Virus record (IMG/VR): IMGVR_UViG_3300039183_000005
Location: 104,333 to 168,332 of that record
Length of the DNA: 64,000 bases
Origin: a virus
Strand: one strand, 5' to 3'
The notes beneath the pieces were generated by a model, which was given only the letters and a program-made list of their open reading frames with translations, did no database searches and was not told the origin of the DNA. Numbering within the stretch: position 1 is the stretch's first letter; each line of letters starts with the position of its first letter. This document shows, piece after piece, positions 6,793 through 40,017 of this stretch. Both the position numbers and the translations under genes were made by a program.

Positions 6793-7215
6793 TCATCGTC
6801 GTTTTTTTGAACATTTTCCACTTTTTCTATTAAATACTTCGTTTACTAAAGCATCTGCGCATTTGTTTTCTCGTCGTGGAACCCATTTGATTGTGTGGTC
6901 TTCGAATTGTTCTAACAGTTCTAGCACACAATCTCTGTGTTTTATAAGTTCTGGTTTATTGGTTTTAAAAGCCATGGTAACTTGTTTTATTACCAATTGA
7001 CTATCGCCAATAATATGAACGATATCTACTCCAGCTTTTAAACATCCTCGTAGGCCAGCAATAAGGGCTCTGTATTCGCTAACATTTGATGATCCAGTCC
7101 CACATGTTTTATTCCCCGATGCTATAACTTCTCGATCATCTATTGACGTTAAAATCCAGCCATATACCATTTGCCCTCGCCTAACACCTCCGTCAAAATG
7201 TAAAATACATTCCAA
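6793..7215 (-). CDS. Ribonuclease HI
   Basis: The 140-residue product has the four acidic motifs of RNase HI in order: HFDGG, SEYRAL, GDSQLV and ENKCADAL. It would remove RNA primers from RNA-DNA hybrids at phage forks, alongside the primase and helicase in this window. The length is typical of the compact phage/archaeal form without the basic protrusion. Confidence 0.92.
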   Translation of the reverse strand: MECILHFDGGVRRGQMVYGWILTSIDDREVIASGNKTCGTGSSNVSEYRALIAGLRGCLKAGVDIVHIIGDSQLVIKQVTMAFKTNKPELIKHRDCVLELLEQFEDHTIKWVPRRENKCADALVNEVFNRKSGKCSKKRR

Positions 7216-7228
7216 TACAATTTACCTT

Positions 7229-7369
7229 TCATTTGAGTAATTTACTTGATGCTATTGTTTCATTTCCGCAATCACATTTACAAAGCCATAGAATTCTTTT
7301 ATCTTTGTTCTTTCCATGTGCCTTGATAGCAGTCAACCTGCCAAACTTTTTTTCTGTTAAATCTATCAA
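7229..7369 (-). CDS. Small Cys-rich domain like the N-terminus of phage HNH endonucleases
   Basis: A 46-codon ORF starting at TTG, which overlaps the TGA of the upstream Cas4-like gene. Its product carries LTEKKFGRLTAI and WLCKCDCGN, matching the first 50 residues of the HNH endonuclease at 20,727-21,374 (LTGKRFGRLVVV...WLCRCDCGK). The nuclease part is absent. It is either a stand-alone zinc DNA-binding peptide or the remnant of a homing endonuclease. The match is clear; expression is uncertain because the start is weak. Confidence 0.6.
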   Translation of the reverse strand: MIDLTEKKFGRLTAIKAHGKNKDKRILWLCKCDCGNETIASSKLLK

Positions 7370-8319
7370 AACGGAGTCTCCCCATCTTCAACTTCAGTTT
7401 TCGCGCCACTACACATATCTTTGAAGAAACATCTTTCACATGCATGTTCGTTATCTGTTTTGGAAAAATAATCCGGATTATCTTTGTTTTCAAATGCTTC
7501 TTTAAGGAGTGGATATTCACTACGTATGATACCAGCTTGTCTTTTTATGTGTTGCATGGTTACATTAAGGTGTGGTGCCGCCCGTTCCCCAAGCTCTGCA
7601 TATGCGGCTAGATATACTGGAATGATTATAATATCTTCTGGCTTTTTCGCCCATCCTTGTTTGAGTGCATACATACTATATGTCGTTAATTGATCTATTG
7701 CACTATCGCTGACACGACCGGTTTTCCAATCTAAAAGATATACTTTTCCACGATACCGAAATCCACAGTCAATTTTTACACTTACTTCTTCACCTGTGTT
7801 TAATTGGAATTTTTGGAAGTCCTCAAGAGTCAGCCAATCATCCTTATCTAGACTCTGTAAAATTTCGAACAACGGTATATTATAGAACGCTTTTATGGAC
7901 GCCAGAACTTTATGTTTGTAGCTATCTAGGCGGTCTTTGGAAATTTCTTCTTGATAGAAATGTTCTGCTAGGTTAACATTTTGCTTTGGACTACTATGCC
8001 ATCTCTTATCTTTTGACTGCTTCCAACCTTTACGAAGTGCTTGGATACCATCGTGTTGTGCTTGCTCAAGCGTTCTCCATTTTCCCGTTTGACGACCAGT
8101 TGTAATGATGCCTTCAATAATATTGTGAACTACGGAGCCGACGAACATTGGAAGATTGGTCATGTTTTTTAGCATATATGCTCGACGTTTTTCTTGCGGT
8201 GCGTTAGTTAACCACCCATTCCACGCAACGTGATACGTTAGATGATATCTCCATAAACATTCGCGGAGACATCTCACTCTTGATTCACTCCATGCATATG
8301 TTTGTTCTATTTTACTCAT
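7366..8319 (-). CDS. Cas4/RecB-like PD-(D/E)XK nuclease
   Basis: The 317-residue product has the PDDEXK_1 order: an N-terminal Cys pair (RVRCLREC), GSVVHNIIEG with the conserved His, an Asp in KIDCGFRYRG, the DWKTG catalytic lysine motif, QLTTYSMYA, and a C-terminal CERCFFKDMC. The four cysteines at the two ends are placed as in Cas4 and AddB-type nucleases, where they hold an iron-sulfur cluster. It probably acts as an exonuclease in recombination or replication. There is no CRISPR array nearby. Confidence 0.88.
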   Translation of the reverse strand: MSKIEQTYAWSESRVRCLRECLWRYHLTYHVAWNGWLTNAPQEKRRAYMLKNMTNLPMFVGSVVHNIIEGIITTGRQTGKWRTLEQAQHDGIQALRKGWKQSKDKRWHSSPKQNVNLAEHFYQEEISKDRLDSYKHKVLASIKAFYNIPLFEILQSLDKDDWLTLEDFQKFQLNTGEEVSVKIDCGFRYRGKVYLLDWKTGRVSDSAIDQLTTYSMYALKQGWAKKPEDIIIIPVYLAAYAELGERAAPHLNVTMQHIKRQAGIIRSEYPLLKEAFENKDNPDYFSKTDNEHACERCFFKDMCSGAKTEVEDGETPF

Positions 8320-8331
8320 TATCTTAACTTT

Positions 8332-8415
8332 CTATCGACAATATTTGCATTTAACAGTTCTATTCTCTCCACAAGTGGCCTGAGCACAACTAGCTTCATC
8401 GTCTACTATTCGCAT
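8332..8415 (-). CDS. Possible 27-residue zinc peptide
   Basis: A 27-codon ORF between the Cas4-like and HNH genes whose product has two Cys pairs (CAQATC and CKYC), as in a minimal zinc finger. There is no obvious SD upstream of its ATG, so this is a weak call based on the cysteine spacing and the otherwise empty gap. Confidence 0.35.
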   Translation of the reverse strand: MRIVDDEASCAQATCGENRTVKCKYCR

Positions 8416-8441
8416 AGATCACATTTACAAATTTTCATTTT

Positions 8442-8945
8442 TTATCCTTTGCAATATCGCCACGATCTTCCACATTTAATATCGGAGATAGTCATTCGAG
8501 CAACACCAAAAATATCAGCAATTTGTCTCTGTAATAAATTGCCTTTTAGCAATAATTCTTTTATTTGCATAACTTGTTTTGTTGTTAATTTTGATTTTCC
8601 ATTTCTTTGACCCCTATTTGTTCTCTTGTGTCGTATTTTATCTCGCTCATTATCACGGCGTGTTCCCCAAGTTAAATTATCGACATAATTATTTTGCTTA
8701 TCTCCGTCCAAATGTCGTACTTCATAATTGGCTGTTGGTGGGAAGCCGATAAAAGCAAAAGCTACTAAACGGTGTATTCTACAATATTTTCTGTTGTTAT
8801 TAGCTCTTAGGTCTACTAAACAATATCCGTTTGATATACGCGGTTTTAATATTTTTCCAGTTTGTATCCTTTTCACATGACCGATATTAGATACTTCATA
8901 ATAATTTTCGTATCCAATGATTGGTTTCCAAATTTCTCTATTCAT
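8442..8945 (-). CDS. HNH homing endonuclease with NUMOD4
   Basis: The 167-residue product opens with the NUMOD4 motif (EIWKPIIGYENYYEVS), continues with an HNH core (RIHRLVAFAF, then VRHLDGDKQNNYVDNL), and ends with a helix-turn-helix (LLQRQIADIFGVARMT) that would read the target. Such genes are mobile and spread between phages at conserved sites. It lies between the nuclease and metallophosphoesterase genes without interrupting either. Confidence 0.9.
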   Translation of the reverse strand: MNREIWKPIIGYENYYEVSNIGHVKRIQTGKILKPRISNGYCLVDLRANNNRKYCRIHRLVAFAFIGFPPTANYEVRHLDGDKQNNYVDNLTWGTRRDNERDKIRHKRTNRGQRNGKSKLTTKQVMQIKELLLKGNLLQRQIADIFGVARMTISDIKCGRSWRYCKG

Positions 8946-8975
8946 TCAATATCTACCAATATGTAATTTTATTAA

Positions 8976-10160
8976 CTAGTCAACCCAAATTGGTGCTTCT
9001 ACAGTTTTCCCGTGTTTAGGATGTACCAAGAAAAATGTTTGTTGCGGTTTTTCAAACGGCGCTTTTATATTGATACTATATGGTCCATATCCGATAATAG
9101 ACCCATTCCCAACGAAATTCTTGGCAGACAATCTTTGATGCCAATGGCCAAAAACGTCGATATCTGCTTTCCTACCCTTGTTCCATTCCGCAATGGCCTT
9201 ATTGAGTGGAATGGTAATTCCTCCAACACCACCAGCATAACGAATATAATTACCATGATGAAACCTTAAATTATATCCATACACATTGAGGTAATTAAAA
9301 TATCCTCTAGATAACTTAAATTCTACAGTATCAGATTGTTCATAATGAGACATGAGGAAGTTATATATCAACCATTCAAAACTGTTTTCTACGCTGGTTG
9401 AAATTCTGATTTTTTTCGTTGTCCTACCATGATTTCCAATACTTGTAACTATAATTATCTTTTTAAAGCCACCATGTTCCACTAGAAAATTTATAGCAGA
9501 AATACACATTTTATAAACACCGATACTGGCTTCAACGGGAGATAGTGCGTTGCCCTCTATCAAATCTTCGTGGATATAACCACTAATTAAATCTCCACCA
9601 AGCCATAAAACTAAAGTATTAATATCTGACTTGCTTCTGCACATTTCAATTAGTTTTAGTCCATTCGTAAAAATATTATTGAATCTTTTTCCAGCTATTT
9701 CAATATTATATTCATTCAAGCCGTCTACCGTTTTCGGATCGACAGTTTCTTCGTAGTGTAAGTCTGAACAACATAATACTGCGGTTGATTCTGATGATTT
9801 GCCATTTCTTACCACTTTGATTTCTTTGTGATTAATAAATTCCATATTTCTGCTGAACAAATCCATAGCACTAAGTCGTTGTTTCTGAGTGTCGAATATT
9901 CTTAAAAGTTCATCATATTTTCTTTGAAGTTCTCTTTTTTCTTTTGCTATAGATTTTAATTTAGAATCTAATCCAATTTGTTGGTCTGAAGACAACAATG
10001 GTGCTCCTGACACATATCCTTTGTCGATAGCTTTGTGATATCTGCCGCTTAGCGTTTTCCTTGCAATCCCAGTTTGCTTAGCCGCTTCTGTAATTGACCC
10101 GTATTTAGCAACCGCATCTACGGCTTCTTGCAAAATAATACGTTCACTATTCATCTGCAT
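8976..10160 (-). CDS. HTH-metallophosphoesterase, SbcD-like
   Basis: The product has an N-terminal helix-turn-helix (SITEAAKQTGIARKTLSGRY), a coiled-coil stretch, then a calcineurin-like phosphoesterase core: SDLHYEE, GGDLISGY, GNHGRTT and a final GHWH. Its domain is of the DNA-repair exonuclease or phosphatase type; the fused HTH suggests it is brought to DNA. The start is set at the second Met because AAAGG lies at proper distance from it. Confidence 0.85.
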   Translation of the reverse strand: MQMNSERIILQEAVDAVAKYGSITEAAKQTGIARKTLSGRYHKAIDKGYVSGAPLLSSDQQIGLDSKLKSIAKEKRELQRKYDELLRIFDTQKQRLSAMDLFSRNMEFINHKEIKVVRNGKSSESTAVLCCSDLHYEETVDPKTVDGLNEYNIEIAGKRFNNIFTNGLKLIEMCRSKSDINTLVLWLGGDLISGYIHEDLIEGNALSPVEASIGVYKMCISAINFLVEHGGFKKIIIVTSIGNHGRTTKKIRISTSVENSFEWLIYNFLMSHYEQSDTVEFKLSRGYFNYLNVYGYNLRFHHGNYIRYAGGVGGITIPLNKAIAEWNKGRKADIDVFGHWHQRLSAKNFVGNGSIIGYGPYSINIKAPFEKPQQTFFLVHPKHGKTVEAPIWVD

Positions 10161-10173
10161 CAACGCCTTTCTT

Positions 10174-11949
10174 TTATCCTTCTATGTCGCATATTCCACT
10201 CGGGCAATCGTTTATTGCCGCTTCTTCTTTCATCTGCTTTAGGTATTGTTTTGCTTTTTCTAGTGGTATTGGTACTAGCGGAGATTTCCCTCGACTGCCA
10301 TCTCTGTACACAGTAATTCCTTTGAGTTTACCAATATATTGTCTTATTTCTTTCGATAATTTTTCGACCGAATAATTAGCCGATAAATTAATTGTCTTTG
10401 ATATAGAATTATCCACATGTCTTTGACAAATAGCCTGCATTGCTAGGTGATCTTCTGGTACAATATCATGGGCACATTGAAAATGTTTTGTATCTCTATT
10501 AGTTTCCAAAAACTTTTTTAATAATGGATGCACTACCACTTCGACAGCCCCATCTCTTTTGCCGTTATTATGCATATCTTTATGTTTATTAAAACGCCGT
10601 TCATAAACTGGTTGAAACAATGGTTCTATGCCAGACGAACAACCAGCCATAATAGATGTTGTACCGGTAGGAGCAATGCAAAGTAAAGCGCAATTACGAA
10701 GACCATGTTCTTTGATAAGACGATGATGTCTTCGCGGAAGACATTTTTTAACAAACCCTGTTTTTATATGTTTGTTCGCATCAAATGCGTGAAATGATCC
10801 CTTTTCGATTGCCAAAGTAATACTTGCGTGATAAGCCTGTTTTTTTATAAAGTCCATCATTTTATCTACGATATCTCTTGCTGCTTGACTAGAATATTTC
10901 ATACCTAACTCTAATAGCATATCATGAAGACCCATCACCCCAAGACCAATACGACGATGGTTTTCTGACGTTTCCTGAATAACTGGAAGTGGATAATTAT
11001 TTTGATCTAATACGTTATCTAAAAATCGCACACCCATGGCCACTGTTTCTTCTAATAAATCCCAATCAATTTTACCATTAATAATATGTGTATGAAGATT
11101 AATTGCCCCAAGGCAACAACATCCATATTCTTCCAAAGTTACTTCGCCACATGGATTAGTTGAAGAAAATTCTCCACCTGATACATAAGCAATTGTGTTT
11201 TGTTCATTGATCAAACTAACATTCAAAAATCCAGGATCACCATTTCTCCATGCATTTTGAATAATTTTATTCCAAATATCTTTAACTTCAATTTTCCCTC
11301 TTTCTTCTCCATGCCACCTGAAAACTATTTCACCATCCTCATCCAACAGTTTAAGAAATTCATTGTCAATAAGTACAGAAATGTTGGCATTATTCAATTC
11401 TTTATTGTCAAGTTTTGCTTCTAAAAATTCCAACAAATCAGGGTGTCTCCAATCCAAACAATAAAGTAGAGCTGATCTCCTACCTCCTCCCTCCCTCAAC
11501 TCATTGCAAATACCATTAATTGCCCTCATTAAACTAACTGAACCAGTAGCCTCACCGCCCGTACCTCTGATTTTAGTACCTCTTGGTCTTATTTTCGAAA
11601 AATTAAGTCCAACGCCGCCACCGGTGCCAGAAATAATAGTGACATTTCGTAGAGCATCCCCCCATCCTTCTCGACTATCATTAACAGGAATCACAAAGCA
11701 ACCAAGCATTTGTCCTCTTGGTCGTCCAGCGCCTCTCCAAATTCTACCGCCAGGAGAGAAACGATTTGTTTGTAATATGTCTAAAAATCTCGTAAAATAT
11801 TCATCTCGCTTAGTTCCCATCTCTGCATCTGCAATCGTACGAGCGACACGTTCACATGCTTGGGAAAATGTTTCTTCTTCGTGAATAGCGTATCTATCTT
11901 GAAAAATCTTTAAGGCAAATCCTTGCGGTGAATATTTTGCGATACTCAA
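10174..11949 (-). CDS. nrdJ: Adenosylcobalamin-dependent ribonucleotide reductase, class II
   Basis: The 591-residue product is a monomer-type class II RNR. Recognisable parts are the SPGGRIWRGAG entry, GTGGGVGLNFS, the STNPCGE active-site Cys motif, the IAPTGTTSIMAG phosphate-binding loop and a C-terminal Cys pair (CPSGIC) used for re-reduction. It makes deoxyribonucleotides with a B12-derived radical and needs no separate small subunit or oxygen. No phage thioredoxin or glutaredoxin is seen here. Its stop overlaps no gene, while its start overlaps the stop of the HD-domain gene by four bases. Confidence 0.95.
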   Translation of the reverse strand: MSIAKYSPQGFALKIFQDRYAIHEEETFSQACERVARTIADAEMGTKRDEYFTRFLDILQTNRFSPGGRIWRGAGRPRGQMLGCFVIPVNDSREGWGDALRNVTIISGTGGGVGLNFSKIRPRGTKIRGTGGEATGSVSLMRAINGICNELREGGGRRSALLYCLDWRHPDLLEFLEAKLDNKELNNANISVLIDNEFLKLLDEDGEIVFRWHGEERGKIEVKDIWNKIIQNAWRNGDPGFLNVSLINEQNTIAYVSGGEFSSTNPCGEVTLEEYGCCCLGAINLHTHIINGKIDWDLLEETVAMGVRFLDNVLDQNNYPLPVIQETSENHRRIGLGVMGLHDMLLELGMKYSSQAARDIVDKMMDFIKKQAYHASITLAIEKGSFHAFDANKHIKTGFVKKCLPRRHHRLIKEHGLRNCALLCIAPTGTTSIMAGCSSGIEPLFQPVYERRFNKHKDMHNNGKRDGAVEVVVHPLLKKFLETNRDTKHFQCAHDIVPEDHLAMQAICQRHVDNSISKTINLSANYSVEKLSKEIRQYIGKLKGITVYRDGSRGKSPLVPIPLEKAKQYLKQMKEEAAINDCPSGICDIEG

Positions 11950-30207: not shown

Positions 30208-31218
30208 TTACAAAATAACTCGCCTTTTAAGTTCACCAATGAATCCACGACAATCCTGTCCTTCAGCAGCAGCTTTATTGCGAATTGCTTCAAGAGATTT
30301 ACTGATACTATCTTTTACGGTAGCGGATTCAAAGTCTTTTGGTGTGACACCAGAATCCAAAAATGTATTTCGGAAGTCTACCAGCATTTTTTCAATTTCG
30401 CCGTCGCCGAAGATGTTCATAGACCTAAAGCGGTCTACATATTTCCGGAAGCACGAGATTGATTTCGGAGTTAGTTTCTTTGCATCGCTTTCATCTCCAT
30501 ATGGTTTACCGCTTATGCGTGCCGTCATAAGTTTACAAAATCGAATAGTTTCGTTACGCATAGAAGTCACGTACTCGCTTACGAAGTTGCCCACTTCGGT
30601 TTGCATTTGACGACGCAGCTCATTCTCTTTCTCGTCTTGCACTTTTTGTCGAGCAATTACTTCTTCAACACTGGTTTCTTCTATCGATCCTATACCAGCA
30701 ATTTTAAACGTAAACCAATCGAATTGAAATTTTGCCCGCAGGGCTTGTGGATTTGCCGGATAATGACCCCTTAGACACTTGTTCCAAAAATCTGGATGTG
30801 TTTCTCTTACTGTACGAACAAGATCATCGAAACGAGAAATGAAACTATCTACTCGTTCAAAAAATTCTTCTTTTAAATCTTTAATTTGTTGTTCCACTGT
30901 TGGGAGCATTTTTGCTGGAACAAAATGGGAGCTACTGATACCGAATGGCACAGACCACCTTTCCAGTGCTTTTCGAGCACGCTGTTCGATTTGGGTTAAA
31001 TGTTGTAATTCAGATTTTGGCACCATTAATTTGCGACCAAGATTGCATATTTCTTCTGGAAGTTTGTCTGGGTCGTATCCTATCTTTACTAAATCTGCGC
31101 GAGTAATCATTTTTCGCGCGCTCCACATACGAACTCTAAGGTTCACCAGTAATCCAACATCAAATAAGTTTATGGCATCTTGCTTTGTGTCTTTGTTTTC
31201 GGTTACAATTGTACTCAT
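30208..31218 (-). CDS. DUF3150 family protein
   Basis: The 336-residue product is a long, mostly helical protein beginning with an INLFDVGLLVNLRVRMWSAR segment typical of DUF3150, found in phages and elements next to MoxR/Ycf46-type AAA+ ATPases. It lies just downstream of the AAA+ gene here, so they probably form a complex. Biochemical function unknown. Confidence 0.75.
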   Translation of the reverse strand: MSTIVTENKDTKQDAINLFDVGLLVNLRVRMWSARKMITRADLVKIGYDPDKLPEEICNLGRKLMVPKSELQHLTQIEQRARKALERWSVPFGISSSHFVPAKMLPTVEQQIKDLKEEFFERVDSFISRFDDLVRTVRETHPDFWNKCLRGHYPANPQALRAKFQFDWFTFKIAGIGSIEETSVEEVIARQKVQDEKENELRRQMQTEVGNFVSEYVTSMRNETIRFCKLMTARISGKPYGDESDAKKLTPKSISCFRKYVDRFRSMNIFGDGEIEKMLVDFRNTFLDSGVTPKDFESATVKDSISKSLEAIRNKAAAEGQDCRGFIGELKRRVIL

Positions 31219-31235: not shown

Positions 31236-32795
31236 TTAATTTAAACTGATTTTTCTTTCACCAATTTTTGGCGGTGCAGTTTTTGGTGGTGGATTGGCAG
31301 GCTTAGCGTGATTAGCGCACCATTGTCTAATGTTTGCTACGCGACTAGCTTCTGTTTTTGATAAAGGTATAATTTCCGGAACAGCTTGTTTTAAGTGATA
31401 GGTTTTAAGTTGTTCCTTTTTCGAAAACGCCATTTTTAGACCAAGCTTAACAACTTGCTCAATATCGGCGCCAGTAAAGCCATCGGTTGATTTTGCCAAC
31501 ATATTAATGTCGAAATCATTTGGATCACGATTTCTTTTAATTAAATGTATAGTGAATATTTCTATACGCTCTTTTTCTGCTGGAAGATCAAGGCCATATA
31601 TTTCGTCGAATCGGCCTTTTCTGGAAAGTTCTGGAGGAAGTGATTGAATTTGGTTTGCAGTAGCGATTATGTATACCGAGGACTGTCTATCGTTTAACCA
31701 TTTTATAAATGATCCGAATAATCTGCGAGATGCCCCGCCATCAAAGTCGCCAGAGCCACCGAAACCTTTTTCTATTTCGTCTAAAACCAATTCGCATGGA
31801 GATACGCTTTCTATCATTTTAATAGCCTCTCGCATATTTCGTTCCGATTCTCCAACGAACTTGTTCATAAGATTGCCGACATCCATTGCAATAATTGGCA
31901 ACCCTAGTTCAGATGCAATAGCGGAAGATAATAGAGTTTTTCCGCATCCCTGCAATCCGACAAGCATAAGACCCCGTGGGAATTCAATGCCGAAATCCCT
32001 AGCTTCTTTTGAAAAACATGGACGATCTAACAAAACATGCTGTTTAATTGCGTCATAACCACCAACCAAAGATAGTCCGCCACTGGGCGGTTCAATATAG
32101 GTTAATAACCCAGATGCCCGAATTACTCCAGCCTTTTCACGAATAATAGTTTTGATTGCATCACCATTTAAGTCTTTATGTTTTCTTAATGCCAATGCTA
32201 CTCTATCGACAATTTGTTGAGAGGTCATACCCCTACATGCGTCTACAATTTTTGGGATAATGGTTTTGCTTGGTTCAAATTTAGTTCCATCAGATTTTGT
32301 TACTTCGCTACATACAAAATCGATTCGTTCATTAATTTGTTCATTATTTGGTAATGCGAAATCCATTTGAGTTATGTCGTGAGATAGTGATTTCGGGATA
32401 TCAAAATTAGGTCCGACCATAACTATTGTTTGTTGCACAGAAGCTACAATTTTTCGAAGTTCGTCTAGCCAGCCAATTACTACGTCGTATCGTGGATATG
32501 TTACGTGTTGAAAATATTCACCACAATCACGTAGGATGCAGATTGTTTTTTCTGGAAAATCTACTATGGCTTGTATATGATCTTCTACCGGGGCGGCTGG
32601 TACTACTTCGCAAACTTTGTTGCCATTTTCGTCGATCCATCCCTGCGCAATAGACCAAATATATACTTTACGATCTATCTTTTTCGCTACTTTCGCAATT
32701 TCGCTGATGGCACGATCTTTTTCGAAAGTGTCGACATGTAACAAGGCATGACCAGAACAACAGTAATCGGCAAAATCCTCACCAAAATTATTCAT
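31236..32795 (-). CDS. AAA+ ATPase, Ycf46/FtsH-like
   Basis: The 519-residue product has an N-terminal RecA-like inactive half (about 1-230) and a C-terminal AAA+ module: Walker A GLQGCGKT at 280-287, Walker B CELVLDEIEKG, the sensor IIATANQ, and Arg fingers in SRKGRFDEI. This order matches Ycf46, a remodelling ATPase. An AAAGGGA precedes the start. The run AAA+, DUF3150, DUF1257, DUF2997 suggests a protein-remodelling module. Confidence 0.88.
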   Translation of the reverse strand: MNNFGEDFADYCCSGHALLHVDTFEKDRAISEIAKVAKKIDRKVYIWSIAQGWIDENGNKVCEVVPAAPVEDHIQAIVDFPEKTICILRDCGEYFQHVTYPRYDVVIGWLDELRKIVASVQQTIVMVGPNFDIPKSLSHDITQMDFALPNNEQINERIDFVCSEVTKSDGTKFEPSKTIIPKIVDACRGMTSQQIVDRVALALRKHKDLNGDAIKTIIREKAGVIRASGLLTYIEPPSGGLSLVGGYDAIKQHVLLDRPCFSKEARDFGIEFPRGLMLVGLQGCGKTLLSSAIASELGLPIIAMDVGNLMNKFVGESERNMREAIKMIESVSPCELVLDEIEKGFGGSGDFDGGASRRLFGSFIKWLNDRQSSVYIIATANQIQSLPPELSRKGRFDEIYGLDLPAEKERIEIFTIHLIKRNRDPNDFDINMLAKSTDGFTGADIEQVVKLGLKMAFSKKEQLKTYHLKQAVPEIIPLSKTEASRVANIRQWCANHAKPANPPPKTAPPKIGERKISLN

Positions 32796-34147: not shown

Positions 34148-34909
34148 TTATTTTCCTTGTTTTTTATCTCGTTCCATACATGAAAAACAGTCCATTCCTA
34201 AATCCAGTTGTTCTGCCCTCCATTTCCAGACGTGTTTTCTTGCGTCGTAGTAGTCAATTTCGCCGAAGTGTTTCCACGGGAAATATCCCATAGGGCACAA
34301 TGTTATCATACCTGTTTCTATTACCATCAATTGCCCTGTTTCTTTGCAACACCCACAGCAAACTTCGAATTCACGACTTGATAGGTGATTATCCCATGCT
34401 CTTCCAAGCGGCAATAGCTTATTATCTGGAATATTTACTCCATAAATCAATTTAGCTTTTGGACTGTGTTCGCGATATAGTCGTTGTGCTCGTTTGCTGA
34501 ATTTCTGGTGCCATTTATCATCGGATATTGCCACAAGAACTTCGTCGCAGATTTCACAAACAGAATCTATTGATAATAGGAACTTATTCGTAGCCATTTT
34601 GTCGTAGGCCCATTGACCGTTTGTAACTATAGATGCTTTATGTCTACCAGATGTCAGAGCTATGAGAATTTCTGGATAGTCTGGAAGTATCGTGAACTCT
34701 CCACCCATTATGTTTATTCTTATGTTTTTCGGCAACCATGTGTTTAATAATTCGCAGTCTCGGATAGATAACTGACCTATACATTCAGGGCCAGACCTGA
34801 AACAACAATGAGAACACCGTTCGTTACACTGGTTTGTCACCCTAGCCACAAATTCATTGGTCCATGAATTATTGCTCCACTTACTAAACCAGTGATTATA
34901 CTTTGGCAT
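34148..34909 (-). CDS. Radical SAM protein
   Basis: The start is set at MPKYNHW. The 253-residue product has the CxxxCxxC cluster motif at Cys28, Cys32 and Cys35 (TNQCNERCSHC), a MGGEFTILPDYPEIL SAM-binding strand, and C-terminal cysteines (CCGCCKE, CPMGYFPW, CFSC) that could hold an auxiliary cluster. It is a probable peptide or small-molecule modifying enzyme. A paralogue with a nonsense codon lies directly upstream. No precursor peptide is recognised nearby. Confidence 0.85.
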   Translation of the reverse strand: MPKYNHWFSKWSNNSWTNEFVARVTNQCNERCSHCCFRSGPECIGQLSIRDCELLNTWLPKNIRINIMGGEFTILPDYPEILIALTSGRHKASIVTNGQWAYDKMATNKFLLSIDSVCEICDEVLVAISDDKWHQKFSKRAQRLYREHSPKAKLIYGVNIPDNKLLPLGRAWDNHLSSREFEVCCGCCKETGQLMVIETGMITLCPMGYFPWKHFGEIDYYDARKHVWKWRAEQLDLGMDCFSCMERDKKQGK

Positions 34910-35678
34910 GAATTTTTTCTCTCGACAACCTGATAGATTGATCATGCTCCATGCATGAGCAGCAAGTCATCCCTCTTGTAAGTTGTTCTGATCGCCAATT
35001 TAATACATATTCCTTAGCTTCATACCATGAAGTCTCTGTGAAATGTTTCCACGGAAAATAACCAAACGGACACTTACACACCATTCCGTCTTCTGATATG
35101 AACATATTACCCATTGTGTTACATCTTGCCCATTTTTGTGGATCGGGGACAATATTATTATCCCACGCTCTTCCAACCGGAACAATCTCCGATACAGGAA
35201 GATTACCAGGATCAACTAATGTGACTTTTGGACAATTATTCTGCATAATTTCAAATGCTTTTGGCCACGTATGTTTGTGCCATTTGTCCGTTGATATAGC
35301 GACATCAACTTCTTTACATATTTCTGTAAGAGAGTTAATGGTTTTTATGAAATTTTTTCTGATTGTGAATATGCGAAACCATTGTCCATTTGTAACAATG
35401 CGGATATGATTTCTGTTTTTTGCCAGTACGTAAAGAATTTCTGGATAATTATGCAATATAGTTATTTCACCACCCATTATATTCGGACTAACATCATGCG
35501 GTATCTATCTATTAATATCGATACAATCATTAGTAGATATGTGGCCAACACATTTTGGGCCAGACCGGAAAGCACAGTGAATACACTTTTGATTGCATCT
35601 GTTTGTAACTCTTACTACACAGGCATTTATTGTTGTATTTGTTGTCCATATTTTTGGATATTTTTTATTGCTACTCAT
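34896..35678 (-). pseudogene. Radical SAM protein interrupted by in-frame TAG at codon 58
   Basis: The frame from the ATG at 35,678 carries the radical SAM cluster TNRCNQKCIHC at the same residues (28, 32, 35) as the downstream paralogue. Codon 58 (35,505-35,507) is TAG; the ungapped alignment puts it on Trp58 of the paralogue, a single G-to-A change from TGG. The frame then continues intact (NIMGGEITILHNYPEIL ... CNTMGNMF ... CPFGYFPW ... CCSCMEHD) for another 200 codons. It is either recently inactivated, read through, or a sequencing error. Confidence 0.8.
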
Positions 35679-36079: not shown

Positions 36080-36242
36080 CCTTTGGTATCTTATACATCA
36101 TAGCTTTACAGACTAGCTTAAATTCCCAGTCAGATCGATAATGTCCCAGACTAATGAGAATAAATATGCCATCTATGATTTTTGCGAATGCAAAAATACA
36201 TGCATCCCAGTTAGTAGTTTGGTCTTTTTTACTAAAAATCAT
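36063..36242 (-). CDS. Small protein following the E1-like gene
   Basis: A 59-codon gene whose ATG overlaps the E1 stop (ATGA), so it is translated with the ubiquitin-like cassette. The product has a hydrophobic middle (IFAFAKIIDGIFILISLG) that could be a single membrane or buried helix, flanked by charged ends. No family recognised. Confidence 0.6.
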   Translation of the reverse strand: MIFSKKDQTTNWDACIFAFAKIIDGIFILISLGHYRSDWEFKLVCKAMMYKIPKDDKHA

Positions 36243-36892
36243 TTGGTCCCCATTTCATTGGTCAGCAAATTTACATCGATTTCTTTATCTATTTCGCATC
36301 CACGAAGCCACTTGGCGAATTGTGCTACTCTTATGCCAGCCGATACGTTTGCGCAATAAATTGTTGTTTTTGCAGTACATGACCCAGAATAAGTTTCTCT
36401 CTGTGGGAATAGCGTTGTGTTATAGTGCTCTTTAGATTCTTCGTCGTGTGCGACGAAGATTCTCATATATTCTGCACTCATTCTTCCATCGATAAATAAG
36501 TCAGCTCGATTTTTGACTGCGTTAAAAATAGATTTTCGTGTTTCAATACTGTCTACACAACAAAATAACACACCTCCGGTAAACTGGATTGACATGAATT
36601 TTTTATTTGCAGTGTTTATTTCTATCGCCGGATTAATCATGCGACAAACATCTGCCGTTGCGTCAACTTTAGCACGACCCAAATCTGCTTCGAAATATCC
36701 TTGTGCTGCCAGATTTTCTACTTTTACTATATCAAAATCAATTAATTGAATTTTGGGCACACCAATTGCCGCTAGTTGCAGTGCAACCTGACGGCCACCA
36801 GCGCCAACTCCCACCACAGTCACTTTTGTGTCTTGCAATTTTTCTGGTGGAATTAGTTCTCTCTGACGGATGTCTCTATTTTCAATATTCAC
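36239..36892 (-). CDS. E1-like ThiF-family adenylyltransferase
   Basis: The 217-residue product has the E1/ThiF Rossmann fold: nucleotide loop GVGAGG at 28-33 after a beta strand, the IDFD acidic pair at 51-54, an Arg/Asn set (KVENLAAQGY), and a candidate catalytic Cys172 in YSGSCTAKTT. It would adenylate the C-terminus of the ubiquitin-like protein encoded 3 kb upstream and form a thioester. It is compact, without the extra domains of eukaryotic E1, as in ThiF and PRTRC-type cassettes. JAB and E2-like genes precede it on the same strand. Confidence 0.87.
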   Translation of the reverse strand: MNIENRDIRQRELIPPEKLQDTKVTVVGVGAGGRQVALQLAAIGVPKIQLIDFDIVKVENLAAQGYFEADLGRAKVDATADVCRMINPAIEINTANKKFMSIQFTGGVLFCCVDSIETRKSIFNAVKNRADLFIDGRMSAEYMRIFVAHDEESKEHYNTTLFPQRETYSGSCTAKTTIYCANVSAGIRVAQFAKWLRGCEIDKEIDVNLLTNEMGTK

Positions 36893-36924: not shown

Positions 36925-37812
36925 TTATAGATTTTCTTCAGCCCAAGCAACCACCATATTCGACCATTTTTGGATTGGTTTGTTTATCGCAACAATATCA
37001 TTTCGATTTTCACCAAAAGCATCTTCAGAAAACCATCTTTTTTCTATTGGATCATAAAAATACCACAAGGCATCATTATATTCAAAAAATGCAGCATAGC
37101 CGTTATCATCCCAATGGCAATCAAAGTCTAATTCTTCCACCCGATTAAGTTCATCCTGTTGCCGAGCCAACTGTTCGTACTTTTTATTCCACCATAGCGG
37201 GTCATCATCAGGTTTGTCGTCTTGTACCAGACAGGAACGAGTAATTCCACCTTCTTTTCCTGTCATGCAGAATTTCTCAATCTGTACTTTATCTTTATAT
37301 TCATTATTCCAGGCTTCAATGTTTGAACCATTAAATGGAACATTCCAATCTACTGCAATTTTTAGTTCTTTTACCACTCCCGGTCCAACGTTAATCTTCA
37401 ATCTACAGTAGATTTCTCCACCTCTTGCAATGATGAACATTATGGCCCAATATGGATGGGAAAACGCTTTTCGGAAATTTTCTTCATCGGTTCCGCTAGG
37501 TTGAGGACAATTTCCTGGATGGGAATGTAGTAAAATATTTTGACATGTCCAGGGCGGCATTCCAATATCCATCATTCGTTCTGCGTAATCCGCCATATCT
37601 TCTGAGTCAAAATCGAATGAAGCTCCAGTACATTTTTGTTTTATCAAAATGAAATCTGTAACTAAAAGTGGGTCTTCAGTTCCGGTTACTCCATAACCAG
37701 CTACTTCAGTTGGCCCTTTATCTCTCATATAAATTAATTTTGCAAAACTGTATGGAGTAAATCGCAATGTATCTCCAAAAGTCATTTTTGGCGTCGTGAA
37801 TTTTTTACTCAT
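36925..37812 (-). CDS. JAB/JAMM-domain metalloprotease
   Basis: The ATG at 37,812 overlaps the E2-like stop (ATGA) with AAGGA upstream. The 295-residue product has the JAMM residues: Glu36 in GPTEVAGYG, then His96 and His98 in LLHSHPG, Ser106 and Asp109 (SGTD), giving the exact HxHx7SxxD spacing. It should bind zinc and cut isopeptide bonds or trim the ubiquitin-like precursor. The C-terminal 150 residues are phage-specific with a Trp/Tyr-rich WW-like part (LWYFYDPIEKRWF). Confidence 0.92.
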   Translation of the reverse strand: MSKKFTTPKMTFGDTLRFTPYSFAKLIYMRDKGPTEVAGYGVTGTEDPLLVTDFILIKQKCTGASFDFDSEDMADYAERMMDIGMPPWTCQNILLHSHPGNCPQPSGTDEENFRKAFSHPYWAIMFIIARGGEIYCRLKINVGPGVVKELKIAVDWNVPFNGSNIEAWNNEYKDKVQIEKFCMTGKEGGITRSCLVQDDKPDDDPLWWNKKYEQLARQQDELNRVEELDFDCHWDDNGYAAFFEYNDALWYFYDPIEKRWFSEDAFGENRNDIVAINKPIQKWSNMVVAWAEENL

Positions 37813-39059
37813 ACTCCTATTCCTTCTAATAGACAACCATGTTCTTCAAGACAGGATGAACACATTGGAACTCCACAGTGTTCACATGTTGTTTGACAAT
37901 CTTCGCAAATACTCTTTTGACAACTATGACATTCATCAAGACACTCTTTGCAGCAATTCTCTTCACAAAGACCGCATGTAATCATACATTTTTCACATAT
38001 AGGTTTATTGCAACAAGAACACGCCGATATACATGGATTGCAGAAATATTCCTGACAAATAGTGCATTGGCTTAGACACGACGAACAGTAATTTTTTTCG
38101 CATTCGGTACACATACTTGCACAGTTGTTGCAAAGTGCCTCTCCGCATTCATTACATTGTGTACCACATTCACTACACATCCATTGGTCACACACACAAC
38201 ACGCATCACCATTTTCTGCACAATTTTCACAGTAGTTACAGTCACACATTGCACAATAGTACCCACATTCATCTGGACACCATTCCCTACAATTTTCACA
38301 ACAGAACTCCCCTTCGTGGTCTGGTTCATACCATTTTTCTAATTTGTCATACGGTGAATCATCATTATATGTTCGTAGAATAGATTCTACAACTCTAAAA
38401 CAATCTTCGAGTCTACCCTGGCATATGGCATTTGTTATAGCTTCTTCTCCTTTCCCTTGACATAAAGATTCATCTCCAATGTGTGGATGATAATATCCTC
38501 CTAATGATTGTATTTCATTTACTGACTCTATAGTTATGTTATACGGATTCGTTAGATCAATGTGTACCCAAAAGTGCCCAAGGTCTACTTCTTCATTTTC
38601 ATCTTCGAGCACAACATCCTCGATAAGTACCGATAGTTTGTTGTCGCGAAATTTAACATTTTTCCAGGCGTTGCTAATTATTCTAATTTCTTCTGTTATT
38701 TCTTTTAGCGACAATGGTGTTACTAGACCTTTTTCTGTCATGATTTTAATTATTGCCATTGCTTGGCGTGTCATTTCTATAACACTATCTCCAATGTTTG
38801 GAATCATGGTTGTCGCAATATTTTCGTATACACTTGGATTTACAATTCCCAGATGTCGGACTGATGGTTCCCATTCATTAACTTGGACACGCGGACTTGT
38901 TCCAGCAATAAATCTATCGTACCATCGTTTTATTTCTTCCAATTTGATAGCAGCATTTGTTATTGCATTACTTGCGCTCATATTGAGATTAACAGATTGT
39001 TGTTCCACCATCCATTTGTGATATTTGATAGCAGCTCTGCGTATTAGTTTTTCATTCAC
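37809..39059 (-). CDS. E2-like domain fused to a Cys-rich zinc array (E2/E3-like)
   Basis: The 416-residue product starts at GTG with AGGAAA upstream. Residues about 130-245 look like a prokaryotic E2/RWD domain: strands HFWVHIDLT, then YYHPHIGDESLC with HPH at 191-193 and candidate catalytic Cys200, and a VVESILRTYN helix. Residues 253-409 are a chain of CxxC pairs, roughly nine repeats of a 15-residue CxxCx4CxxCx3 unit, resembling serial treble-clef/RING or B-box fingers. Linking conjugase and finger array in one chain suggests a self-contained E2/E3-like ligase. Its stop couples to the JAB gene. Confidence 0.8.
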   Translation of the reverse strand: MNEKLIRRAAIKYHKWMVEQQSVNLNMSASNAITNAAIKLEEIKRWYDRFIAGTSPRVQVNEWEPSVRHLGIVNPSVYENIATTMIPNIGDSVIEMTRQAMAIIKIMTEKGLVTPLSLKEITEEIRIISNAWKNVKFRDNKLSVLIEDVVLEDENEEVDLGHFWVHIDLTNPYNITIESVNEIQSLGGYYHPHIGDESLCQGKGEEAITNAICQGRLEDCFRVVESILRTYNDDSPYDKLEKWYEPDHEGEFCCENCREWCPDECGYYCAMCDCNYCENCAENGDACCVCDQWMCSECGTQCNECGEALCNNCASMCTECEKNYCSSCLSQCTICQEYFCNPCISACSCCNKPICEKCMITCGLCEENCCKECLDECHSCQKSICEDCQTTCEHCGVPMCSSCLEEHGCLLEGIGV

Positions 39060-39240: not shown

Positions 39241-39435
39241 TTATTCATCTGATCTTGCTAGACATTCAGCCAGTCCTCCGACATAATCTTCTAGGTGAAG
39301 TAACACTTCACTATATCCAAATGCGTGACCTTTTTCCCAAGCCATATACGATAGCCAGCCACGAAATTTTTTGGGAATTCGATTTAGAAGTTCGGTTTGC
39401 TTGGCCTCGAACTCTTCTTCAGTTATTCTGCTCAT
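39241..39435 (-). CDS. Hypothetical protein inside the ubiquitin-like locus
   Basis: A 64-residue helical protein (MSRITEEEFEAKQTELLNRI; EVLLHLEDYVGGLAECLARS) between the Ubl terminator and the E2-like gene. No family recognised. It could be an adaptor of the cassette or an unrelated small protein. Confidence 0.6.
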   Translation of the reverse strand: MSRITEEEFEAKQTELLNRIPKKFRGWLSYMAWEKGHAFGYSEVLLHLEDYVGGLAECLARSDE

Positions 39436-39540: not shown

Positions 39541-40017
39541 TTACGAACGCTTCGTCAGCTTACTCCGAACCAACTCGGCATCTTCTTTACTAAGACCGCT
39601 AAGCAACTTGGAAACAGTCTTCGGAAGCTTATCCCTAGACATTTGTACTCTCTTTAATTTATATGCGAGAGTAAGTACATTTGGATCGGTATCGGCGGCA
39701 AGTCGCTCAGCGATAGTTACATTATCAGTGCTCATTTTGGTCCTCAGAGAAGCTATCTGCTCCTCATTTGTTCCTGGACCTTTACCCGCGTCGCCCTCGA
39801 TCTTTTTCGGCGCCAGACTTACCCTGTCACCGTCTTGAAGGACATAATCCAGATGAGCTTCGACAGTCATGCCATTTGCACGAACTCGGATTGTGAAATC
39901 ATCCAAATCGCGACCGAAAGAAACCTCAAGAAATTTTTCCAACGTCGTTCCATTGACAACGGGAATCTTGCGCGGAATACCAGAACCGTCATTTGTTACC
40001 AACATTACCTCGATCAT
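39541..40017 (-). CDS. Ubiquitin-like beta-grasp protein with helical tail
   Basis: The 158-residue product begins with a ThiS/MoaD/ubiquitin-type beta-grasp domain (about 1-75): MIEVMLVTNDGSG, a helix TTLEKFLEVSFG, and the closing YVLQDGDRVSLAPKKIEG, where DGDRV is the typical turn of this fold. The core ends near GDAGKG at 76-80, and a Lys/Leu-rich helical tail of about 75 residues follows, so a terminal Gly would appear only after cleavage, possibly by the JAB protein downstream. GGAG sits seven bases before the start. The gene is isolated by a strong terminator. Confidence 0.82.
   Translation of the reverse strand: MIEVMLVTNDGSGIPRKIPVVNGTTLEKFLEVSFGRDLDDFTIRVRANGMTVEAHLDYVLQDGDRVSLAPKKIEGDAGKGPGTNEEQIASLRTKMSTDNVTIAERLAADTDPNVLTLAYKLKRVQMSRDKLPKTVSKLLSGLSKEDAELVRSKLTKRS

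Follow-up and report, generated by a model that had tools for sequence, protein, structure and literature searches.

A candidate ubiquitin-like conjugation cassette in a tailed phage encodes an E2-like protein fused to a long treble-clef array

The window, which here means the whole 64-kb stretch of DNA that was analysed and is the final part of a viral record of 168,332 bases, carries on its minus strand a four-gene cassette encoding, in order, a ubiquitin-like protein (Ubl), an E2-like protein with a C-terminal finger array (E2-finger protein), a JAB/JAMM peptidase and a ThiF-type E1. This cassette is probably a Ubl-conjugation system with the product of the second gene as its E2, and its gene content and order, catalytic motifs, modelled folds and recurrence in other genomes are documented below. 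Genes for a tail tape-measure protein, DNA polymerase, primase, DNA ligase and RNA ligase were found elsewhere in the record, which was hence assigned to a tailed phage. The coordinates of the features are listed in Table 1.

Table 1. Features of the cassette and its surroundings in the window.
Feature	Position	Strand	Basis or remark
Ubl; putative beta-grasp at about residues 1-76, conserved Gly75, fused helical domain	39541..40017	(-)	Weak ThiS-like Pfam matches
Helical domain after the Ubl; begins GPGTNEEQ	39541-39780	(-)	Free-standing small gene in loci L005, L009 and L010
64-aa ORF between Ubl and E2	39241..39435	(-)	Kept in locus L004, 80% identity
Predicted E2-like conjugating enzyme with C-terminal treble-clef (zinc) array	37809..39059	(-)	416 aa, GTG start
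N-terminal helical region of the E2-finger protein, residues 1-109	38733..39059	(-)	AlphaFold helices 3-23, 28-54, 75-109
Predicted E2 core, residues 112-248, alpha-beta4-loop-alpha	38316..38726	(-)	AlphaFold and 74-row alignment
HPH motif, residues 191-193, at the site of HPN in classical E2s	38481..38489	(-)	Alignment
Predicted catalytic Cys200, followed by invariant Gly202	38460..38462	(-)	25 and 74 homologues
Treble-clef array, residues 253-412, nine CxxCx4CxxC units	37824..38303	(-)	Sequence, AlphaFold, Foldseek
JAB/JAMM peptidase	36925..37812	(-)	Prok-JAB 4e-5; ATG overlaps the E2 stop by 4 bp
ThiF-type E1, 217 aa, adenylation domain only	36239..36892	(-)	ThiF 1.4e-26
AAA+ ATPase (AAA and AAA_lid_3), possible accessory	31236..32795	(-)	Pfam
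DUF3150 protein adjoining the AAA+ gene, possible accessory	30208..31218	(-)	Pfam 3.3e-22

The GTG start of the E2-finger ORF is backed by homologues opening with MN(D/E)KL(V/I)RRAA. Relative to three homologues, both the E2 core and the array diverge most at third codon positions, a pattern resembling that of real coding sequence, and a reading-frame artefact was thereby ruled out. The full-length AlphaFold model is least confident in residues 1-109. When this whole model was searched with Foldseek, the long helices and the array dominated and no E2 was among the matches, and the E2 core was therefore folded separately.

The initial annotation had located an HPH motif at residues 191-193 and a cysteine at residue 200, and the translation bears this out. 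In 74 aligned E2 cores, His191, Pro192, Cys200 and Gly202 are invariant and H193 is at least 90% conserved; Cys200 is also invariant across 25 full-length homologues. The motif reads HPH in 78 of 84 E2 cores and has the classical form HPN in three. Folded alone by AlphaFold (pLDDT 93.4, pTM 0.86), the core shows no unrelated fold and instead takes the order of the UBC fold, with a helix, four strands, the loop bearing HPH and Cys, and two helices. The E2/UBC feature of an HP(N)-type motif and a downstream Cys on the loop after a four-stranded sheet is present, mostly as HPH.

Independent comparisons are suggestive of the same assignment. By hhalign, HPH..C of the E2 core is in register with HPN..C of three human E2s at E 0.0036 and a probability of 9%; of the three, the UBE2D2 sequence was matched to the PDB. 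One of the 74 members, the homologue on a Thermoplasmata MAG contig, has a match to Pfam UQ_con at 9e-4 that spans HPx..C and is below the Pfam cut-off. A BFVD search with the core returned four viral matches below 0.001 (5e-5 to 3e-4), all unnamed. Foldseek against the PDB gave nothing below E 0.001, the best E2-fold match (8tz0_D, E 0.43) being a chain of a bacterial E1-E2-Ubl complex, and the Pfam and NCBIfam searches were without any model covering the E2 domain; a Prok-E2_B control matched nowhere and is uninformative. Because the PDB comparison was not significant and the profile matches were weak, it is the motif, the topology and the invariable gene company that carry the E2 assignment. 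The same shortfall would fit an N-terminal domain of some other alpha/beta fold that shares HPx..C by coincidence, but the topology, the position of the HP motif and the Cys on the loop, and the constant linkage to Ubl, E1 and JAB genes make this unlikely. The conjugase reading of the initial annotation is thus strong in its gene context (Ubl, JAB and E1), but falls short in its fold match to the PDB.

The Ubl matches ThiS-family models at 0.0014-0.017, below the cut-off, and its orthologues lie immediately upstream of the E2 gene in most loci. The motif [KRQ][IVMD]xG is kept in 81 of 84 Ubl proteins and followed by Ala in 67 of those 81, and the proteins often end at this G-A or a few residues beyond. 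A processing step is likely for the Ubl, because the helical domain fused to it in the window is encoded by a separate gene in three other loci (Table 1). Three distinct viral loci encode three tandem Ubl domains in a polyubiquitin-like arrangement (L016, 1381-2118; L021, 417-1082; L024, 303-968), and the E2 of these viral cassettes is 710-798 aa long.

The JAB protein scores just under the Pfam cut-off for Prok-JAB. Its metal-binding motif E...HxHx7SxxD is present, with HSHPGNCPQPSGTD at residue 96 (96-109); HxHPx6SxxD is intact in 99 of 101 JAB homologues, and E36 is invariant in three sequences. The E1 scores 93.6 bits against ThiF, above the Pfam gathering threshold of 28.1 bits, and its profile matches UBA5, UBA6, MoeB and bacterial BubCD in the PDB. 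Against PRTRC_ThiF it reached 32 bits, short of the cut-off of 144.75; the PRTRC operon is presumably the same as the type 6d operon considered below. ThiF/MoeB E1s have a canonical Arg in NLxRQ, and this Arg is absent from the window's E1, which reads NLAAQG.

A sulfur-carrier or cofactor pathway, with a ThiS/ThiF-like Ubl and E1 and the Cys-rich protein as a sulfur or metal handler, would account for an E1 closest to ThiF/MoeB models, for the weak similarity of the Ubl to the ThiS family and for a partner so rich in Cys. It is nevertheless very unlikely, as the cassette holds a JAB peptidase and a protein of E2 topology with invariant HPx..CxG, and no thiamine or molybdopterin synthesis genes were recognised in the gene tables examined. 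Inactive E2 homologues have been reported from some bacterial operons (PMC11354881), and the E2-finger protein might likewise be a catalytically dead, UEV-like Ubl binder with the array as a scaffold, but a Cys200 and HP motif that do not vary across divergent members render this highly improbable.

Beyond the four genes, 22 loci (11 each from viruses and bacteria) have an AAA+ homologue no more than about 6 kb away from the cassette, and DUF3150-type genes are similarly close in many loci. The AAA+ gene was considered as a core member of the cassette and demoted, because many phages without a known cassette carry AAA+ relatives. Downstream of the E1 gene in the window, two overlapping related ORFs were seen on the minus strand (34148-34945 and 34896-35477); the first encodes a radical SAM protein and its 193-aa neighbour resembles a partial copy.

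The array had been described as about nine tandem CxxC units, and exactly nine CxxCx4CxxC units were counted, starting at residues 269, 287, 302, 317, 332, 347, 362, 377 and 392 and spanning residue 269 to 403. The spacing is 18 residues and then seven times 15, such that eight of the nine units keep a strict 15-residue period. Residues 253-416 hold 46 Cys, with 20 CxxC pairs in all. Among 20,000 composition-preserving shuffles of the array, the mean was 0.92 units, the maximum was 8 and none had nine, which rules out a chance origin. No tandem repeat was found in the array DNA at the nucleotide level; a DNA repeat as its source was therefore ruled out, and the 15-residue period is maintained at the protein level. 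As third-position divergence is maximal as well, the array appears to be old and under selection on the protein. In the full-length AlphaFold model, the fingers form regular treble clefs (pLDDT about 86-97, residues 251-410), in line with the chained treble clefs that the initial annotation had proposed to look for. In the Foldseek search of the full-length model, the array gave local matches to FYVE fingers (prob 0.96-0.97) and also to PHD pairs and LIM pairs, none below E 0.001.

Nearly every member of the family carries the array in one chain with the E2. Four units are present in 48 of the 57 genome members, four being almost always the number in planctomycete versions, whereas the median is nine (5-12) in the window's viral clade, in which the array is thus longer than in the planctomycete form; the remaining viral members range from 0 to 8. 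The unit at the C-terminus, CxHCGxxxCxxC, is common to most of the window's clade, and the units hence have positional identity. Two relatives (L002 and L031) have no fingers, so the putative core reaction does not need the array.

The chemistry of the reaction, the direction of transfer and the function of the array are predicted as follows. The E1 would adenylate the Ubl at its conserved C-terminal Gly (usually Gly-Ala), and the activated Ubl would move from the E1 to Cys200 of the E2. The treble-clef array would serve as a built-in, E3-like docking module that recruits or orients protein targets, and the JAB peptidase would trim the Ubl precursor and/or take the tag off. Most likely, the phage would in this way tag host or phage proteins during infection, for takeover or counter-defence. 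The role of the array as a built-in E3 is plausible, with a little under an even chance. Alternatively, the same cassette may have an array that is not E3-like and binds membrane lipid, nucleic acid or phage complexes, the E2 acting without an E3 or with another. This is quite possible: the nearest structural matches are FYVE, PHD and LIM fingers, which are often not E3s, and not RINGs; finger-less relatives exist; and CBASS Cap2 conjugates with no separate E3 needed. The near-universal fusion and the conservation of the last unit in most of the clade nevertheless suggest a role at the E2 step.

Scans for close relatives with the E2 core alone or the JAB alone detected none. The family was opened by the E1. 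As a single query it gave two loci, and an alignment of E1 sequences then added about 29 distinct viral contigs, nearly all of which encode, on the upstream side of the E1, an HPx..C protein, mostly with a CxxC array. From a genome scan with the E1 alignment, 80 loci were kept, almost all in Planctomycetota, with single Actinomycetes, Hydrogenedentota, Emcibacter and Thermoplasmata MAGs, for some of which the binning is possibly wrong. Ubl, CxxC-array E2, JAB and E1 genes occur in this order across most loci with enough flank, and the order is kept across viral and planctomycete loci. Hence the fused architecture, for which a wider search had been suggested, recurs in many viral contigs and planctomycete genomes. 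Of the 244 planctomycete genomes sampled, 15 carry the E2, and the genome richest in it has six copies, which share a single contig; the distribution is patchy and multi-copy. Cultivated species with cassette homologues are Rhodopirellula solitaria, R. maiorica and Neorhodopirellula pilleata. A tblastn search of annotated phages with the whole E2-finger protein and the JAB gave no match, and an E1 search of plasmids at 1e-20 found none. In a quick E1 tree, the window fell within a 16-row set (SH-aLRT 96%) in which 15 rows are viral and the other is the Thermoplasmata MAG, most planctomycete rows were in two other groups, and the placement of several long viral branches was unsure. The Thermoplasmata MAG contig (L041, G003:C1) has three E2 copies on 27 kb and could be a virus or misbinned.

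Integrases make up 5 of 84 neighbours of planctomycete copies, and recombinases, Cas3, argonaute and other restriction-like genes also lie near these copies, which would fit a location in mobile or defence islands. In R. maiorica and N. pilleata (L105 and L115, respectively), argonaute and DpnII-MboI nuclease genes are directly downstream of the cassette, at about 7100-10700. One to several copies of a small-ORF family (about 104 aa) were seen upstream of the Ubl gene in 12 planctomycete loci, for example L056, L053 and L048, about 2.4-4.6 kb upstream of the E1 gene. An HSP90-like ATPase gene is near the cassette in nine loci, one of them viral.

A tblastn search with the E1 retrieved 42 phage records, mostly of Crassvirales, in which the gene order is primase, Ubl-like protein, HSH..CxGxG protein, JAMM 'metalloprotease', E1, hypothetical protein and uracil-DNA glycosylase. 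The Ubl-like protein has an invariant SGA followed by a helical part, the E2-like protein (370-440 aa) an invariant HSH..CxGxG, and the E1 is homologous to the cassette E1 (own HMM, 1e-36 to 1e-41). The E2-like protein compares with the cassette E2 at E 0.041 in hhalign, and a crAss-like BFVD model at E 0.002, which is suggestive of a relationship. An hhalign comparison of the crAss Ubl set was discarded as circular, the target set already including crAss rows. The block resembles the window in gene order, homologous E1, JAMM motif and Ubl-like protein, but has no fingers and reads HSH where the window has HPH. Judged by these sequence features, it resembles a Ubl cassette without fingers that cultivated gut phages carry, and it is present in a phage grown on Bacteroides intestinalis. 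In the records (L126-L132; for example PhiCrAssBcn17, OQ221552.1, 94823-99232), its products are entered as hypothetical, metalloprotease and thiamine biosynthesis proteins, and ubiquitin is not mentioned in the crAss-phage literature checked.

UBE2O and BIRC6 are eukaryotic E2/E3 hybrids in which extra domains give E3-like target selection. Like the window's protein, they join an E2 and extra domains in one chain, but their accessory domains are unrelated and without a Cys-rich array. The type 6d operon combines Ubl, JAB, E1 and E2 genes in one bacterial operon (Iyer et al. 2006, PMC1779556) and so has the same four kinds of component as the window. Within the available part of that source, the type 6d E2 is without the classical His before the Cys, whereas the window's E2 has HPH there, and a finger array such as that of the window's E2 is not mentioned. 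The Caldiarchaeum Ub-E1-E2-RING (srfp) operon includes an Rpn11/JAMM protease that trims pro-ubiquitin (PMC5654768), and it shares with the window the E1-E2-finger logic and the JAMM protease, but there the finger is supplied by one small RING protein that stands apart from the E2, whereas the E2 of the window has 9-10 treble clefs in its own chain. Ubiquitin-like operons of planctomycetes, actinobacteria and acidobacteria were reported by Burroughs, Iyer and Aravind (2011), as cited in PMC4197634, and the planctomycete operon among them may be the same as the cassette described here. The CBASS Cap2/Cap3, Bil and BUB systems have E1, E2 and JAB modules like the window; the substrates conjugated by Cap2 end in Gly or Ala (PMC10097602), as does the motif of the Ubl, and BUB is further linked by the match of the E1 profile to BubCD. 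In contrast, these three are host defence systems in which no long treble-clef array on the E2 was found, whereas the window's cassette belongs to a phage, has such an array and uses a stand-alone, single-domain E1.

Bacterial Ubl operons, including those of Planctomycetes, are already known (PMC1779556, PMC4197634). The initial annotation knew of no described protein with the E2-finger layout, and neither a phage Ubl cassette nor an E2-treble-clef fusion was found in the open-access papers searched; the layout is not unique, though, because many viral contigs and planctomycete genomes share it. A bolder reading, somewhat less likely than not, is that tailed phages, including crAss-like gut phages, own a complete Ubl pathway, and that the E2 of one lineage is a single-chain E2/E3 with an array about twice the planctomycete length, which would be a modular target reader during infection. 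Bacterial Ubl conjugation has so far been seen mostly as host defence. If this reading is true, a full cassette in tailed phages would put the attacker in possession of tagging machinery, and an E2 that brings a chain of fingers along would be a simple natural E2/E3 hybrid. Since arrays of 0 to about 12 units accompany a constant E2 core, the contribution of an E3-like module is testable, and cultivated planctomycetes offer a setting for the cassette and a crAss-like phage a tractable one for its finger-less look-alike.
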